Of a DNA stretch of 64,000 nucleotides, positions 17,355 to 26,197 are shown piece by piece; the first letter of the stretch is position 1, and the number at the start of each line of letters is the position of its first letter. Under the pieces are notes generated by a model. It did not search any database. It had not been told where the DNA came from and was given only the letters and a program-made list of their open reading frames with translations. A program made the position numbers and the translations under genes. The DNA comes from Pseudomonadota bacterium (GTDB lineage: Bacteria; Pseudomonadota; Gammaproteobacteria; Steroidobacterales; Steroidobacteraceae): contig JAFEDU010000001.1 in assembly GCA_018241425.1 (NCBI GenBank), positions 744,001 through 808,000 on the forward strand, given 5' to 3'.

Positions 17355-18077
17355 TCAGCCGTGGCCGCCCTCCAGCGCCTGATGCACCAAGGCGCTGATC
17401 TGCGGGAGTGTCAGTGCGGAAAGGTCCACGTCGATCACACGCACGACGTTGCGGTGCGTTTCGGGATGGTGCCGCTTCAGGTAGTCCATGAGGTGCAGGG
17501 CCGAGTCGCTCTTGCCCCGCCCATGCCCCACCACCACGATCCGGGTCGCAGCCGCAAGCGCCTCGCTGATCCGTGCGTAGAAGCTCGGGTCTTCTGCGCT
17601 TCGCTGCCCTTCCTCGCGCGACTGGCCCTTGTGCGTCAGGTGATGCAGGAAGTGGTGCGGGTCGTACGGCTTGATGTCCCGGACCTGGGAATTCGCAGCG
17701 GGTGTCCCGAGACTGAAAAGCTTCGCGGCGTGGTGGTCGATCTCAACGACGATGACGTCCTGGGGCGTCACCGTGCCCGACCCCTGCCCGCGCCGGATCA
17801 GGTCCCGCAGGCTCGCGACCTCTGATGCGTTCACATCCTTGCCGTGGCCCCTGGGGAGCACCAAGTGCTGCCCACCGAACTCGAACGAGACCTTGTCATT
17901 GGGCTTTTCGCGCACTGCCCCAATGTTCTCGAACAGCGAGATCACATCCATCCACTCGAGATTCTGGGCCGTGGGATGCCGGAACAGGGCGTCCAGAGTC
18001 CTGCGGTGGCCTCCATTGAGCTCACCGATTCCTGGACCGATTGCTCCAGCGCCGCCTTCGCTCGTGCTGTCTTTCAT
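17355..18077 (-). CDS. HicA-like domain fused to eRF1-domain-3-like (baeRF) protein
   Basis: About 240 residues, two domains. Residues about 20-95 (THRTL-type pattern HRRTLDALFRHPT, EWMDVISLFENIGA, LPRGHGKDV) follow the HicA-like dsRNA-binding/RNase fold. Residues about 115-240 (VIVVEIDHHAAKLF, DPHHFLHHLTHKG, RIVVVGHGRGKSDSALHLMDYL) match the archaeo-eukaryotic release-factor-like or host-attachment family. ATG at 18077 has an AGAGGA site four bases upstream; the open frame continues to 18134. A stand-alone relative of the C-terminal half lies at 23157-23564. A role on stalled ribosomes or RNA is inference from the folds. Confidence 0.75.
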   Translation of the reverse strand: MKDSTSEGGAGAIGPGIGELNGGHRRTLDALFRHPTAQNLEWMDVISLFENIGAVREKPNDKVSFEFGGQHLVLPRGHGKDVNASEVASLRDLIRRGQGSGTVTPQDVIVVEIDHHAAKLFSLGTPAANSQVRDIKPYDPHHFLHHLTHKGQSREEGQRSAEDPSFYARISEALAAATRIVVVGHGRGKSDSALHLMDYLKRHHPETHRNVVRVIDVDLSALTLPQISALVHQALEGGHG

Positions 18078-18631: not shown

Positions 18632-18774
18632 CCACTCCCTCCTCAAATCTGGAAAGTTGAGTGCACGGAGTTTGCACTGAACGCTACCCCAAAGGGGAGG
18701 ATTACCCTCGTCCATCAATGATCTGGTTCGCGGATCCACGGACTGGTCATCATACAAACGACCGGCGAACCGGC

Positions 18775-18957
18775 ATGGGCAATGAAATCGGCAACGCGGC
18801 CCGTGCGCACGGCGCCAGGATTAAGCTTGCCAAGGAAGCCGGAATCACTCGAGCCGGTTTGCACAAGGCGCTCAGTAAAGACGGCAACCCAAGCTTCGAC
18901 ACGATCGTTAAGACCATGCGCGCCCTCGGAGTCAAACTGGTTCCCAAGGCAGCCTGA
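18775..18957 (+). CDS. Truncated HigA-type antitoxin (HTH) remnant
   Basis: 60 residues with the core of the addiction-module antidote family: IGNAARAHG, KEAGITRAGLHKALSKDGNPSFDTIVKTMRALG. That is the Cro-like HTH in which Asn-Pro-Xaa-Phe follows the recognition helix. Family members usually have about 40 more residues at the N-terminus, which are absent in all frames here, and no toxin gene is adjacent. Probably a deletion remnant; a functional orphan DNA-binding protein is less likely. Confidence 0.6.
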   Translation: MGNEIGNAARAHGARIKLAKEAGITRAGLHKALSKDGNPSFDTIVKTMRALGVKLVPKAA

Positions 18958-20433: not shown

Positions 20434-21855
20434 ATGCGCGAATACACGCGCTTCTACATCAATGGTGCGTGGGTGAGCCCCGCCCAGCCCAAGACCTTGG
20501 ATGTCATCAACCCGGCCACCGAGGCGGTGGCGGGCCGGATCTCCCTCGGCAGCGCCGCGGACGTCGATCGTGCCGTGCAGGCCGCGCGCCAGGCGTTCAC
20601 CACCTGGGGCGCGAGCTCCCGGGAAGAGCGGCTCGAGGCCCTGGGTAGGCTCGCGGCCGAGTATCGCAAGCGGATGGACGACATCGCCGCGGCGATCACC
20701 GAGGAGATGGGCGCGCCGCGAAAGCTCGCCCACACCGCGCAGGCGCCGAGCGGACTCGGCCACATCGAGACGGCCATCGCCGTGCTGCGCGACTACCCGT
20801 TCGAGCAGGTGCGCGGCACGACCCGGATCGTGAAAGAACCGATCGGGGTCTGCGCCCTGATCACGCCCTGGAACTGGCCGATGAACCAGATCGCCTGCAA
20901 GGTGGCCCCGGCGCTCGCGACCGGCTGCACCGTCGTGCTCAAGCCCTCGGAGATCGCGCCGTTCTCCGGTCACATCTTCGCCGAGATCGTCGAGGCCGCG
21001 GGCCTGCCGCCCGGAGTGTTCAACCTGGTCGACGGCGACGGGCCGACGGTCGGGGCCGCCCTCGCCTCGCACCCGGAGGTCGACCTCGTCTCCTTCACCG
21101 GATCGACGCGGGCCGGCATCGAGGTCGCCAAAAACGCCGCGGCGACCGTCAAGCGCGTGGCGCAGGAGCTCGGCGGCAAGTCCCCGAACATCCTCCTGGA
21201 CGATGCCGACTTCGAGAAAGCCGTCACCGCCAGCATCCGCAGCGTCATGAGCAACTCAGGACAGTCCTGCAATGCGCCCACGCGCATGCTCGTGCCGGCG
21301 CACCGCATGGCCGAGGTCACGCAGATCGCCCGGCGCGCCGCCGAGGCCATCCGGGTCGGGGACCCGGGCGGGGACGCCGATTTGGGCCCGGTGGTCTCCG
21401 CGGTACAGTGGAAGAAGATCCAGGACCTCATCGCGGTGGGCATCGATGAGGGCGCCGAGCTCATCGCGGGAGGGCTGGGACTGCCGAACGGGCTGTCGCG
21501 CGGCTACTACGTCAGGCCGACGGTCTTCGCCGGCGTCACCAACGACATGCGGATCGCGCGTGAGGAGATCTTCGGCCCCGTGCTCACGATCCTCGGCTAC
21601 GAGTCCCCGGAGCAGGCCGTCGCGATTGCCAACGACACCGAGTACGGGCTGGCCGCCTACATCTGGGGCACCGACCCTGCGAAGCTCAGGAAGGTGATCC
21701 CGCGCCTGCGCGCGGGCAGGGTCGGGGTCAACGGCGCCGGCGGCGACCTGTTTGCACCCTTCGGTGGCTATAAGCGCAGCGGCAACGGCCGCGAATGGGG
21801 CGAGTACGGATTCCATGAGTTCGTGGAGCTGAAGGCCGTGCTCGGAGCTCCCTAG
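20434..21855 (+). CDS. NAD(P)-dependent aldehyde dehydrogenase
   Basis: A 473-residue ALDH-superfamily enzyme. ITPWNWPMNQIACKVAPAL begins the cofactor site, QELGGKSP (near residue 250) supplies the catalytic Glu, and SGQSCNAPTR (near residue 282) the nucleophilic Cys. IFGPVLTILGYE and the C-terminal FGGYKRSGNGREWGEYG motif are complete. Substrate is not evident; the sequence type is close to enzymes annotated as aldehyde dehydrogenases of aromatic or amine catabolism. Divergent from the ornithine cyclodeaminase homologue. Confidence 0.92.
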   Translation: MREYTRFYINGAWVSPAQPKTLDVINPATEAVAGRISLGSAADVDRAVQAARQAFTTWGASSREERLEALGRLAAEYRKRMDDIAAAITEEMGAPRKLAHTAQAPSGLGHIETAIAVLRDYPFEQVRGTTRIVKEPIGVCALITPWNWPMNQIACKVAPALATGCTVVLKPSEIAPFSGHIFAEIVEAAGLPPGVFNLVDGDGPTVGAALASHPEVDLVSFTGSTRAGIEVAKNAAATVKRVAQELGGKSPNILLDDADFEKAVTASIRSVMSNSGQSCNAPTRMLVPAHRMAEVTQIARRAAEAIRVGDPGGDADLGPVVSAVQWKKIQDLIAVGIDEGAELIAGGLGLPNGLSRGYYVRPTVFAGVTNDMRIAREEIFGPVLTILGYESPEQAVAIANDTEYGLAAYIWGTDPAKLRKVIPRLRAGRVGVNGAGGDLFAPFGGYKRSGNGREWGEYGFHEFVELKAVLGAP

Positions 21856-22690: not shown

Positions 22691-23131
22691 CTACGGCCGT
22701 GCCGATCGCTCGGCGGTCAGCTCGGTGCGGATGACCTGCACTACATCGCTCAGCTGCTGCGCGAGAGACCCCAGCAGATCGTCCACCGAGAGCACGCCGA
22801 CCAGCTGACCTTCGGCAACTACCGGGACGCGGCGCACGCCGGCCTCGCGCATGAGGCCGAGCGCGCTGACGGGAGACTGTGACTCTTCGATGAGTAGCGG
22901 GTTACGCGTCATGACGTCCCCGACCGTGAATTCCGACGGGCTGGCGCCCTGGGCCACCACCGCGGTCACGATGTCGCGGTCCGTGATGACGCCCACCACG
23001 CGCTGCTGCTGCGGCCGGATCACCACCAGGAACCCGACGTGGGTCTCGCGCATGCGCTGCGCCGCCACAGGGAGCGATTCTGACTCATAGGCGGTGAGCG
23101 GGCTGCGCCGGCACAATCGTGCGACCGTCAT
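22691..23131 (-). CDS. CBS-pair protein
   Basis: 146 residues made of two CBS motifs: residues 10-65 (LTAYESESLPVAAQRMRETHVGFLVVI, VVGVITDRDIV) and 75-130 (VGDVMTRNPLLIEESQSPVSALGLMREAGVRRVPVV, LVGVLSVDDLL). Such pairs bind adenine nucleotides or NAD and report energy state. ATG 23131 is chosen for its GGGAGA site. It lies between cytochrome and eRF1-like genes in a cluster that also includes Usp, so a stress or low-oxygen role is inferred. Confidence 0.88.
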   Translation of the reverse strand: MTVARLCRRSPLTAYESESLPVAAQRMRETHVGFLVVIRPQQQRVVGVITDRDIVTAVVAQGASPSEFTVGDVMTRNPLLIEESQSPVSALGLMREAGVRRVPVVAEGQLVGVLSVDDLLGSLAQQLSDVVQVIRTELTAERSARP

Positions 23132-23156
23132 GGCACTCTCCCTCGAGGCTCGGGGG

Positions 23157-23564
23157 TCAGCGCTTCGGCGCCACCTGGGACTGCATGCGGTCATCCGCAT
23201 GGAAGAACTTCCGGCCGATGGCCGCAAGCTCCCCGTCGCTGGGATGGTCGAGCGACTCGATGCCCACGATGCACGAGGCGATCCTCGGGTGACGACGCTC
23301 CAGGTACGACATCAGCTCCAGCTTGGCGCTGGCGGGGCCGGTGAGAAGAATCCGCGCGTAACCCTGAAGTGCCTGCGAGACCCGCTCCAGGTAGTCGGTG
23401 TCGACCGCAGCATGCCCGCTGCCGGATTCGTTGGCCTTGTGGTGCAGATGCCGGTGAGGGTGCGTGCTCGCAACCTTCTGCCAGCGAATCTCCCCGCCCT
23501 CCAGAGCCGCGAGTTTCGCCAGCTGGTGGTCGATCCAGACCAGTAAATGAACATTTTGCATCAT
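23157..23564 (-). CDS. Stand-alone eRF1-domain-3-like (baeRF/host-attachment) protein
   Basis: 135 residues beginning VHLLVWIDHQLAKLAAL, with the His-rich HPHRHLHHKANESG segment and an ARILLTGPASAKLELMSYLERRHP core. This is the same architecture as the C-terminal half of the protein at 17355-18077. The domain is related to the third domain of archaeal/eukaryotic release factors and Pelota, found in bacteria near stress genes. Function in ribosome rescue is proposed for some relatives; not shown here. Confidence 0.78.
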   Translation of the reverse strand: MMQNVHLLVWIDHQLAKLAALEGGEIRWQKVASTHPHRHLHHKANESGSGHAAVDTDYLERVSQALQGYARILLTGPASAKLELMSYLERRHPRIASCIVGIESLDHPSDGELAAIGRKFFHADDRMQSQVAPKR

Positions 23565-23987: not shown

Positions 23988-24129
23988 CGCTCACGATAGT
24001 CTGGGCACGCCAGGCGGGCCCGCATCCGGAAAAGTACCTACCTTCCCCGGGCCTCGGCAGCAGGTGCAAGCTCATGCGACGATTGCAGCGTTGCACTGCG
24101 CAAGAAGACCGCGGAGGCGCCATAGGTCA

Positions 24130-25116
24130 ATGAAAGCGATGCGAGTGCATCCCGGACGTCGCGCTCTGGTGTGCGAGGAGCTCGAAATCCCGGAACCGCG
24201 CGACCAGCAACTGCTGATCCAGGTGTCCGCCTGCGGCGTGTGTCGCACCGACCTGCACGTGCTCGATGGGGAACTTCCGGACCTGCACTTGCCACTGACG
24301 CCCGGCCACGAAGTGGTCGGCACGGTCGTGCGTGCAGCGATCCCCGGACCCTTCGTCCCGGGCGACCGGGTCGGGGTTCCCTGGCTGGCGCACACCTGCG
24401 GCGCCTGCTCCTTCTGCAGAGGGGGGCAGGAGAACCTGTGCGCGGACGCGCAATTCACCGGCTACACGTGCGATGGCGGATATGCCGAATACCTCATCGC
24501 AGACTGGCGTTACTGCCTCGCGATCCCCCGCCATTACTCGGACATCGCCGCCGCACCCCTCCTGTGCGCGGGACTCATCGGCTACCGGGCCTACCGCGCG
24601 GCAGGCGAGGCCGCTGCCCTGGGGCTGTATGGGTTCGGCGCCTCCGCCCACCTGCTGGCGCAGCTGGCGTGTGCACAGCACCGACGCGTCTACGCCTTCA
24701 CCCGACCCGGCGATGTCGCAGCGCAGAACCTCGCCCGGAGCCTGGGGGCGACGTGGGCCGGAGCTTCCTGCGAACGGCCCCCGGAACCCCTCGATGCCGC
24801 GATAATCTTCGCGCCCCTCGGTTCTCTGATACCGCAGGCCCTGGCCGCGTGCCGGCGGGGCGGTCGCGTGGTCTGTGCCGGGATCCACATGTCTGACGTC
24901 CCGGCCTTTCCCTATTCGCTGCTTTGGGGTGAGCGCACGGTCACCTCCGTGGCGAACCTTACCCGGAGGGATGGCCAGGAATTCATGGCGCTCGCCTCGG
25001 ATCTCGTGCTGCGTCCCCATGTCGAGACCTATCCGCTGGAAGGGGCCAATGAGGCGCTCGAGCGGCTCAGGGGCGGCAACGTCAACGGCTGCGCAGTGCT
25101 GGCCGTCGCGCGCTGA
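24130..25116 (+). CDS. Zinc-dependent alcohol dehydrogenase
   Basis: A 328-residue medium-chain dehydrogenase of the AdhA/AdhP type. The catalytic-zinc region CGVCRTDLHVLDGELP plus GHEVVG, the structural-zinc cluster CGACSFCRGGQENLC (near residues 95-110), and a Rossmann half starting LGLYGFGASAHLLAQLA (a variant of the usual Gly-rich loop). It would interconvert short alcohols and aldehydes with NAD(H). Start ATG 24130. Paired with a tandem Usp gene downstream, as in low-oxygen/stress regulons of other proteobacteria. Confidence 0.9.
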   Translation: MKAMRVHPGRRALVCEELEIPEPRDQQLLIQVSACGVCRTDLHVLDGELPDLHLPLTPGHEVVGTVVRAAIPGPFVPGDRVGVPWLAHTCGACSFCRGGQENLCADAQFTGYTCDGGYAEYLIADWRYCLAIPRHYSDIAAAPLLCAGLIGYRAYRAAGEAAALGLYGFGASAHLLAQLACAQHRRVYAFTRPGDVAAQNLARSLGATWAGASCERPPEPLDAAIIFAPLGSLIPQALAACRRGGRVVCAGIHMSDVPAFPYSLLWGERTVTSVANLTRRDGQEFMALASDLVLRPHVETYPLEGANEALERLRGGNVNGCAVLAVAR

Positions 25117-25198
25117 GCAGCGCTAGGTATTTCTGCGGATCCCGCTGCGGCATGTCCGGATTTCCGTGCACAGGGCGCATCGCAAAATCGCCTCCACC

Positions 25199-26197
25199 AT
25201 GGCCCGTCGTCCCGCCAAGATCGCGCGAATCCTGGTCGCCCTGAAGGACATCAGGCGTACACCCGCGCACGTGCTGGGCAAGGTGCTCCACCTGGCGAAG
25301 GGGCTCAATGCCGAGGTCTGCCTGTTCCACGCGCTCAGCGACCCGGTCTTCATCAACAGCGTCACGCTCGCGACCACCTCGCTCGAGGTCATCGAAGCGC
25401 GCGCGCAGAAGCGTGCCCCGCACCGGCTCGAGTCCCTGGCCGGCCTCCTGCGACGCAAGGGCGTCACCACGACCACCCGCGTGGACTGGGACTATCCGGC
25501 CCATGAGGCGGTGATCCGCGCCACCATGAGTTGGGCGGCGGACCTGGTGATCGTGGACTGCTACCGCACGCAGCATCGCGCCCCCTGGCTGCTGCGCTTC
25601 ACCGACTGGGAGCTGCTGCGCAACTGTCCGGTTCCAGTGCTCCTGCTCAAGAACCGGCGCCTGTATGCTCGCCGCCCGGTGTTGGCGGCGGTCGATCCCC
25701 TGCACGCCTTCGCGAAGCCCGCGAAGCTCGATGGCGAGATCCTGAGCTATGCGAGTGCCGCGGCCGCGGCGCTGCGCTCGCCCCTGCACGCGGTAAGTGC
25801 CTACAACCCGCTGCTGACCGGCATGACGCCTGCCGAACTCATCGCCCCCGGCGGGATCAAGCGTGCCCAGGCCGCCGCTGCCGATCGGGCACGCCGCAGC
25901 GCGGAGCCGGAACTCGAGCAGCATGGCATCACCCAGCGGCGCCGGCATATCGTCGACCACGCCCCGGCCGCCGCCATCCAGCAGACCGCGGCCGAGATCG
26001 ATGCCCAGATGGTCGTGATGGGTGCCATCTCGCGCACGGGACTCAAGCGCCTGCTGGTGGGCAACACTGCCGAGCGGGCGCTCGACCTCCTGGAGTGCGA
26101 CGTTTTGGTGGTCAAGCCGCCGGGGTTCCGGCCGCGGGTCCCGCGCAGCAGCCGTGGCCCCCAGCTGCTCGCGGTCGCGACGATCGCCGGCATGTAG
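25199..26197 (+). CDS. Tandem universal stress protein (UspE-like)
   Basis: About 332 residues with two Usp domains. The first (residues 8-150) begins ARILVALKDIRRTPAHVL and ends ...NCPVPVLLLKNRR. The second (about 155-310) contains the ATP-binding-type GNTAERALDLLECDVLVVKPPGF, preceded by MGAISRTGLKRLLV. The first domain lacks the G-x9-G-S/T motif, so only the second is likely to bind nucleotide, as in UspE. ATG 25199 preferred because the upstream 11 residues are not family-like. Confidence 0.85.
   Translation: MARRPAKIARILVALKDIRRTPAHVLGKVLHLAKGLNAEVCLFHALSDPVFINSVTLATTSLEVIEARAQKRAPHRLESLAGLLRRKGVTTTTRVDWDYPAHEAVIRATMSWAADLVIVDCYRTQHRAPWLLRFTDWELLRNCPVPVLLLKNRRLYARRPVLAAVDPLHAFAKPAKLDGEILSYASAAAAALRSPLHAVSAYNPLLTGMTPAELIAPGGIKRAQAAAADRARRSAEPELEQHGITQRRRHIVDHAPAAAIQQTAAEIDAQMVVMGAISRTGLKRLLVGNTAERALDLLECDVLVVKPPGFRPRVPRSSRGPQLLAVATIAGM

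Follow-up and report, generated by a model that had tools for sequence, protein, structure and literature searches.

A HicA-like domain fused to an eRF1/Pelota/Balon-type domain 2 in bacteria: a protein that probably acts on ribosomes under stress

The gene P0001 of the studied Steroidobacteraceae genome encodes a HicA-like domain and a release-factor-type domain in one reading frame. Nearly full-length relatives in other genomes show that this frame is not due to chance, and the fusion is thus confirmed as real. As judged from sequence profiles and a predicted structure, its second half is a domain 2 of the eRF1/Pelota/Balon type, with an RNase H-type fold, and belongs to the aeRF-1 superfamily. 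The fusion protein probably acts on ribosomes under stress. The reading that we prefer, at slightly less than even confidence and by analogy, is that of a stress or hibernation factor that would bind the A site without catalysis, in the manner of Balon, and contact RNA through its HicA domain. The fusion shows a toxin-family RNA-binding domain recruited to a release-factor-type domain, a link of toxin-antitoxin genes to ribosome control, and the related stand-alone domain-2 family offers candidate ribosome factors in genomes without a recognised Balon, such as this one. The features of the locus are collected in Table 1, in which positions refer to the window, i.e., the whole stretch of 64,000 nucleotides that was analysed.

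Table 1 Features of the fusion locus and its surroundings in the window
Feature	Position	Strand	Remarks
Fusion gene P0001, 240 aa + stop	17355..18077	-	ATG at 18077, stop 17355-17357, coding 17358-18077
HicA-like domain (dsRBD-type alpha-beta3-alpha), residues about 17-100	17778..18029	-	Profile comparison and model elements
eRF1/Pelota/Balon domain-2-like domain, residues about 106-240	17358..17762	-	Structure and profile
His-rich loop KPYDPHHFLHHLTHKGQSREEGQRSAE, at the putative place of the eRF1 GGQ loop	17592..17672	-	Alignments, from which the placement is inferred
His78, conserved in the HicA-like half; differs from the GxH catalytic position	17844..17846	-	Alignment column
Orphan HI1420-type addiction-module antidote gene	18661..18957	+	PF21716, E 2.1e-12, 47.2 bits vs cut-off 27
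Aldehyde dehydrogenase	20434..21855	+	tblastn, 31% to annotated succinate-semialdehyde dehydrogenase beside the Granulicella fusion
CBS-domain protein; listed start maybe too far upstream	22691..23227	-	NCBIfam CBS-containing families, all below cut-offs
P0002, stand-alone relative of the second half, 135 aa	23157..23564	-	34% identity, E 3.9e-8; no Pfam/NCBIfam family
Zinc-type alcohol dehydrogenase	24127..25116	+	43% to annotated ADH beside the Granulicella fusion
Tandem universal-stress protein	25166..26197	+	PF00582 at G000:C11:769226-770116 = window 25226-26116

The second half is a release-factor-type domain 2

Direct searches of P0001 and P0002 against Pfam and NCBIfam returned no relevant match. 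A profile of 27 second halves matched domain 2 of archaeal Pelota with an E value of 1.1e-5, the sole PDB sequence match under E 0.001, followed at E 0.006-0.009 by another Pelota and by FSP1, an unrelated FAD enzyme. A profile built from 12 stand-alone second halves matched Pelota at E 0.0019. When the 27 members were scanned singly, the NCBIfam pelota model was matched by 10, the highest number for any model (best E 5.6e-4, yet far short of the cut-off). Weak Pfam matches were obtained for baeRF_family2 (four members), eRF1_2 (three), Host_attach (two) and baeRF_family10 (two); these sit amid unrelated families of similar strength, with a best baeRF E value of 0.004, and the baeRF matches are by inference below cut-off.

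An AlphaFold2 model of the fusion, built from seven sequences, is of middling quality (pLDDT 70.9, pTM 0.49). Its best Foldseek matches were Dom34 (E 8.8e-4) and Balon (E 9.9e-4), then Rv2629, with the actin-fold protein 3hrg at rank 4. In VIA-align, rows 1-29 had Z scores of 8.5-11.9, nearly all over residues 102-240; 24 of these rows name eRF1/aRF1, Pelota/Dom34 or Balon, and rows 8, 12, 17, 22 and 26 have titles without a factor name. Pelota reached Z 11.9 and Balon 10.2-11.0, and the first unrelated row was YqgF at Z 8.3. The sequence-only reading had proposed an eRF1-like half with the fold of domain 3: a release-factor-type domain is indeed predicted by profile and structure alike, but the assignment to domain 3 was rejected, as both lines of evidence fall on domain 2. 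The C-terminal, GTPase-binding domain 3 is absent, since P0001 ends with domain 2 and has no room for it.

According to PMC10901736, it is domain 2 that contacts the catalytic centre of the ribosome in Balon and aeRF1, and by analogy ribosome binding through the second half of the fusion is plausible. A rather unlikely alternative is a regulator or ribosome-assembly factor that has nothing to do with the A site and would only bind RNA with its two halves, the second doing so in the way of ribosomal proteins with this fold: the RNase H-type fold and the matches of the model to YqgF and, at Z 7.5, to mitochondrial small-subunit chains that we take to be uS11 agree with it, but the names borne by most of the 29 top structural rows, the lack of any PDB sequence match other than Pelota below E 0.001 and the large share of members matching NCBIfam pelota all point to release-factor-type proteins. 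In the window's genome, no acVLRF1 (PF18859) match was found, and no baeRF_family2 (PF18844) match at E 0.001, P0001 and P0002 giving none either.

The earlier observation that the second half has a stand-alone version some 5 kb away proved correct (P0002 in Table 1), and the fused second halves as a group are homologous to the stand-alone family (E 1e-25). With a profile threshold of E 1e-8, stand-alone second halves were detected in 7 of the 199 phylum genomes sampled, one of them the window's, and also on named plasmids of Bradyrhizobium and Variovorax. Their motifs are VWIDHxxAK, HLHHKA, GPxxAK and DHPTDxE. The family is named by no Pfam or NCBIfam family; it goes by the name 'translational machinery protein', on which nothing relevant was found in the literature. 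It may represent an unannotated group of ribosome factors. A model of P0002 alone (pLDDT 58, all-helical) was set aside.

A conserved His-rich loop without GGQ

The loop that probably occupies the place of the eRF1 GGQ loop has the consensus KPYDPHHFxHHLxHKxQ...GQR, which hardly varies within the main group of fusions, and the model has pLDDT values below 50 at residues 140-147 and 155-159 in this region. GGQ itself was found in none of the 27 second halves (12 fusions and 15 stand-alone). In the HicA half, P0001 does contain the letters GGQ (residues 68-70), as does its relative L006 (residues 61-63), which we take to be due to chance.

It is nevertheless conceivable that the loop's GQR is a GGQ variant and that the protein is an active peptide-release or rescue factor hydrolysing peptidyl-tRNA on stalled ribosomes. 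The loop is the densest run of invariant columns in the fusion alignment, GQR or GQK is present in 10 of the 12 intact fusions, and PMC6514570 argues that a conserved Gln of the catalytic loop marks active families, GG not being strictly required. However, G057 (with GDR) and G728 have lost the motif, and it is missing from the loop of the stand-alone second halves, so that we consider such an activity quite improbable. A separate suggestion from the sequence is that the His-rich loop might bind a metal ion. Five His residues lie within nine positions of the loop and are invariant in all seven aligned fusions.

The first half is HicA-like and lacks the catalytic histidine

The HicA-like nature of the first half, already proposed in the sequence-only reading, was borne out by profile comparison: the profile of fused first halves matched that of stand-alone HicA-like proteins with a probability of 99.4 and an E value of 5e-22 over 84 columns, whereas cross-comparisons of unlike halves gave probabilities of about 0.1. 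All 19 stand-alone relatives of the first half (about 85 aa) match PF07927 (HicA_toxin) at E values up to 10, the best being 1.4e-11; among seven fusions compared directly with PF07927 one matched (E 0.097), and P0001 itself gave no match. Through these stand-alone relatives, profile evidence places the first half in the HicA family (PF07927). The AlphaFold2 model has a helix (residues 42-52), three strands (54-58, 62-67 and 70-75) and a second helix (84-97) in this half, an order that agrees with the dsRBD fold given for HicA in the cited section of PMC11594946. The list of structural matches contains no HicA chain and covers residues 1-101 of the model poorly.

According to the same section of PMC11594946, mutagenesis showed that HicA toxins need the His of the GxH motif. 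This residue is present in none of the 12 intact fusions and in none of the 19 stand-alone relatives, in which the position is occupied by Arg, Ala or Ser. The GSR motif of the stand-alone HicA-like family is gone in all 12 fusions. What is kept is His78, which aligns with the second His of the HxPH motif of the stand-alone family; the column holds His in 11 of the 12 intact fusions, and the Nostoc fusion has Lys, with a His one residue further.

The fusions also differ from their stand-alone relatives in gene context. A HicB antitoxin gene adjoins none of the 13 fusion loci, and the sole HicB match near a fusion is a weak one (E 5e-4) at a distance of 4.4 kb in L001. By contrast, 27 of 31 stand-alone HicA-like genes are directly followed by a Pfam HicB gene (30 downstream frames scanned, 27 matching); the 31 are those with locus sequence and do not include six further first-half matches, the second Polymorphobacter plasmid and G024. 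Three stand-alone genes without a HicB neighbour are L032, L037 and L092. One scanned downstream frame, judged from its sequence to be that after L037, has a GIY-YIG match, and the frame after L092 resembles polyphosphate kinase on inspection of the sequence.

The idea that one half acts on mRNA is therefore not sustained, given the missing catalytic His and the absence of HicB beside the fusions as opposed to its presence beside most stand-alone genes. Put in full, this would be a single-chain ribosome-rescue nuclease that docks in the A site through domain 2 and uses the HicA domain to cleave the mRNA at that site. The kinds of domain found in the two halves suit such a role, and His78 remains in nearly all fusions; moreover, cleavage with other residues is conceivable because the stand-alone relatives, which likewise lack the GxH His, mostly keep HicB, so that the subfamily may use a different active site. 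Against this stand the loss of both the GxH His and the GSR motif from every intact fusion, the lack of an adjacent HicB and the description of HicA toxins as ribosome-independent in the cited part of PMC11594946, and we hold such a nuclease to be distinctly improbable. A broader two-part effector is unlikely in our view: in the A site, domain 2 would take up the side of the peptidyl-transferase centre, and the HicA-derived domain would reach the mRNA or decoding centre and cut, by means of a non-canonical active site, or clamp the mRNA. Such a protein, originating from toxin-antitoxin material, would switch ribosomes off in stress without an antitoxin.

Distribution and origin of the fusion

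In six public genomes (L001-L006), near full-length relatives of P0001 were confirmed by tblastn, at 42-47% identity (43-49% over the best segment); the record names are those of Alphaproteobacteria, Rhizobiales, Rhodospirillales, Acetobacteraceae and Verrucomicrobia assemblies and of Lichenifustis flavocetrariae. In all, 13 fusion loci are known to us (the window and 12 others), 12 with an intact frame, from Proteobacteria, one Verrucomicrobia MAG and plasmids of Cyanobacteria and Acidobacteriota. A plasmid of Nostoc sp. C052 carries one fusion copy, and the copy on a plasmid of Granulicella tundricola is broken by a frameshift into two annotated genes; both plasmids were typed as conjugative. 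The two annotated genes of the Granulicella copy overlap (L021:5935-6619), and their cause is a frameshift or a sequencing error.

Within the window's genus, the fusion was found in 3 of 99 genomes searched (the window's own, G020 and G057), and in the class of G408 in 2 of 386 sampled genomes (G779 and G728). Across the phylum, sampled evenly with 397 genomes, it occurred in the window's genome only, and the first half alone was found in at least 25 other genomes and the second half alone in at least 6, counts that are lower bounds because at most six candidates were scored per genome. Among 50,697 phage records, no relative of P0001 was detected at E 0.1.

This rarity and scatter, together with the frameshifted Granulicella copy, would be in keeping with a fusion without selected function, formed from a toxin fragment and the gene next to it and now decaying. 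We regard this as very improbable, since the 12 intact copies have an identical domain order across at least three phyla and group on one branch, and a seven-sequence alignment of fusions contains 57 invariant columns.

A tree of 27 second halves has a branch (98/95, present in 99% of bootstrap trees) that sets the 12 intact fusions apart from the stand-alone sequences, a pattern that one fusion event would fit. The fusion-type first halves are likewise split from the other HicA-like ones (branch 99/96), and two solitary fusion-type first halves, on a Polymorphobacter plasmid and in G024, fall inside the fusion-type group. Both trees are unrooted and leave the direction of the fusion event unfixed. 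Its patchy occurrence across phyla and on plasmids suggests that the fusion was transferred laterally, and the two solitary first halves seem to have lost their second half afterwards. On the Polymorphobacter plasmid (L023:5941-6306), the fusion-type first half stands alone and is followed by an unrelated gene. The neighbourhood of this first half is again one of an oleate hydratase and a zinc alcohol dehydrogenase.

Genomic neighbourhood

Next to the fusion, remnants of a toxin-antitoxin locus had been suspected. An HI1420-type antidote gene is indeed present, its PF21716 match lying above the cut-off, but no partner toxin was recognised beside it among the frames at the locus in Pfam and NCBIfam scans. 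Two further genes of the window locus resemble cytochromes c by their CxxCH motifs.

A zinc alcohol dehydrogenase (ADH) and an aldehyde dehydrogenase (ALDH) occur together within 8 kb at 4 of 10 fusion loci, those whose flanks total 8 kb or more, vs 0 of 24 controls (Fisher p 0.0045). Without the two loci that supplied the queries, the ratio is 2/8 vs 0/24 (p 0.056); in the HicA-only control L075, an ALDH lies at 8.5 kb, just past the 8-kb limit. Neither gene is present at 6 of the 10 fusion loci.

A universal-stress protein is found near both the window fusion and the Granulicella fusion; overall, such proteins are near 2 of 10 fusions vs 1 of 24 controls (p 0.2), with no significant excess. 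Around the stand-alone second halves, some of which are on short contigs, a Pfam profile detected them within 8 kb in 3 of 12 genomes (G000, G001 and G221), and within the same distance of 0 of 5 stand-alone HicA-like controls, yet two controls have one at 9.9 kb; an enrichment near the second half is suggestive only.

Pooled Pfam scans, listed for the 25 commonest families, gave Aldedh 5, ADH_N 5 and BON 3 among 104 fusion neighbours and HicB 7 among 123 HicA-only neighbours, the second-half-only pool numbering 116; the neighbours were chosen by a composition rule, and some window genes by hand, so that real genes were missed. In 21 genomes, the surroundings of fusions and stand-alone second halves contained no HPF/RaiA gene up to a distance of 10 kb, the nearest being 11.5 kb away in G618; 5 of the 21 carry the fusion, several contigs are short, and the set does not take in L001-L006 and the plasmids.

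A possible mode of action and known systems

In the reading that we prefer, that of a non-catalytic stress factor, domain 2 would behave like its counterparts in eRF1, Pelota and Balon and enter the large-subunit A site close to the peptidyl-transferase centre. There, the conserved His-rich loop, being without GGQ, would block or monitor this centre and release no peptide. The HicA-like domain would replace the domain with which eRF1 recognises codons and would bind RNA, either rRNA or the mRNA in the A site. The outcome would be ribosomes silenced or protected during stress, as with Balon or in the way proposed for the single-domain baeRF proteins.

This reading draws on the domain identities, on the complete absence of GGQ from the second halves and of the GxH His from the intact fusions, and on the lack of an adjacent HicB. 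It further draws on the tree pattern of one origin, the ADH/ALDH context, the chaperone genes of L004 and the universal-stress proteins near two fusions, as well as on the reported location of Balon genes in stress operons and on the window's genome having no match to baeRF_family2 or acVLRF1. Several points argue against it: no HPF/RaiA gene is nearby, the EF-Tu-binding third domain is lacking and the stress context is uneven; the conservation of the loop, with GQR or GQK in most intact fusions, would fit a catalytic loop as well; and the model is middling, with an actin-fold protein among its first Foldseek matches.

The combination of HicA and domain 2 appears to be a new architecture within the known aeRF-1 superfamily. 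Among the literature matches listed, no fusion of HicA with a release-factor domain was found (for PMC6514570, in the main text, from which the word 'HicA' is absent), and 'HicA' and 'Pelota' were not found together. The first half shares with the HicA toxins of HicAB systems the family profile and the order of structural elements, but the fusion has neither the GxH His nor a HicB partner and is joined to another domain. Pelota/Dom34 and eRF1 have the same domain 2 fold and the helix-strand profile segment (E 1.1e-5; Z 11.9; NCBIfam 10/27), but are archaeal and eukaryotic proteins of three domains.

Closer likenesses are bacterial. Burroughs and Aravind (2019) described at least 19 families and proposed non-catalytic A-site regulation for most baeRF families, including those without flanking domains (PMC6514570). 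The single-domain baeRF-1 families of that work have, like the second half, an RNase H-fold domain 2 without the flanking domains of eRF1 and without GGQ; here, however, the Pfam baeRF models match weakly (best E 0.004) and a HicA domain stands in front. Balon (Rv2629/Msmeg1130), a hibernation factor homologous to aeRF1, is likewise bacterial, with the domain 2 fold (Z 10.2-11.0), no GGQ and partly stress-type neighbourhoods, and is by analogy an experimental precedent for translation silencing at the A site in stress. It differs in having three domains, with an EF-Tu-binding C-terminal domain, as opposed to a HicA-like domain and domain 2 only, and in that its genes are most often beside RaiA, as given in the cited parts of PMC10901736, in contrast to the 21 genomes surveyed here. 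The Balon-related profile baeRF_family2 (PF18844) is weakly matched by 4 of the 27 second halves, with a best E value of 0.004. The cited parts of PMC10901736 place Balon genes in stress operons, some with chaperones. At L004, genes for DnaJ, GrpE, DnaK and GroEL, named from their sequences, surround the fusion, and in the pooled Pfam scan HSP70 and Cpn60 each matched 1 of the 104 fusion neighbours.
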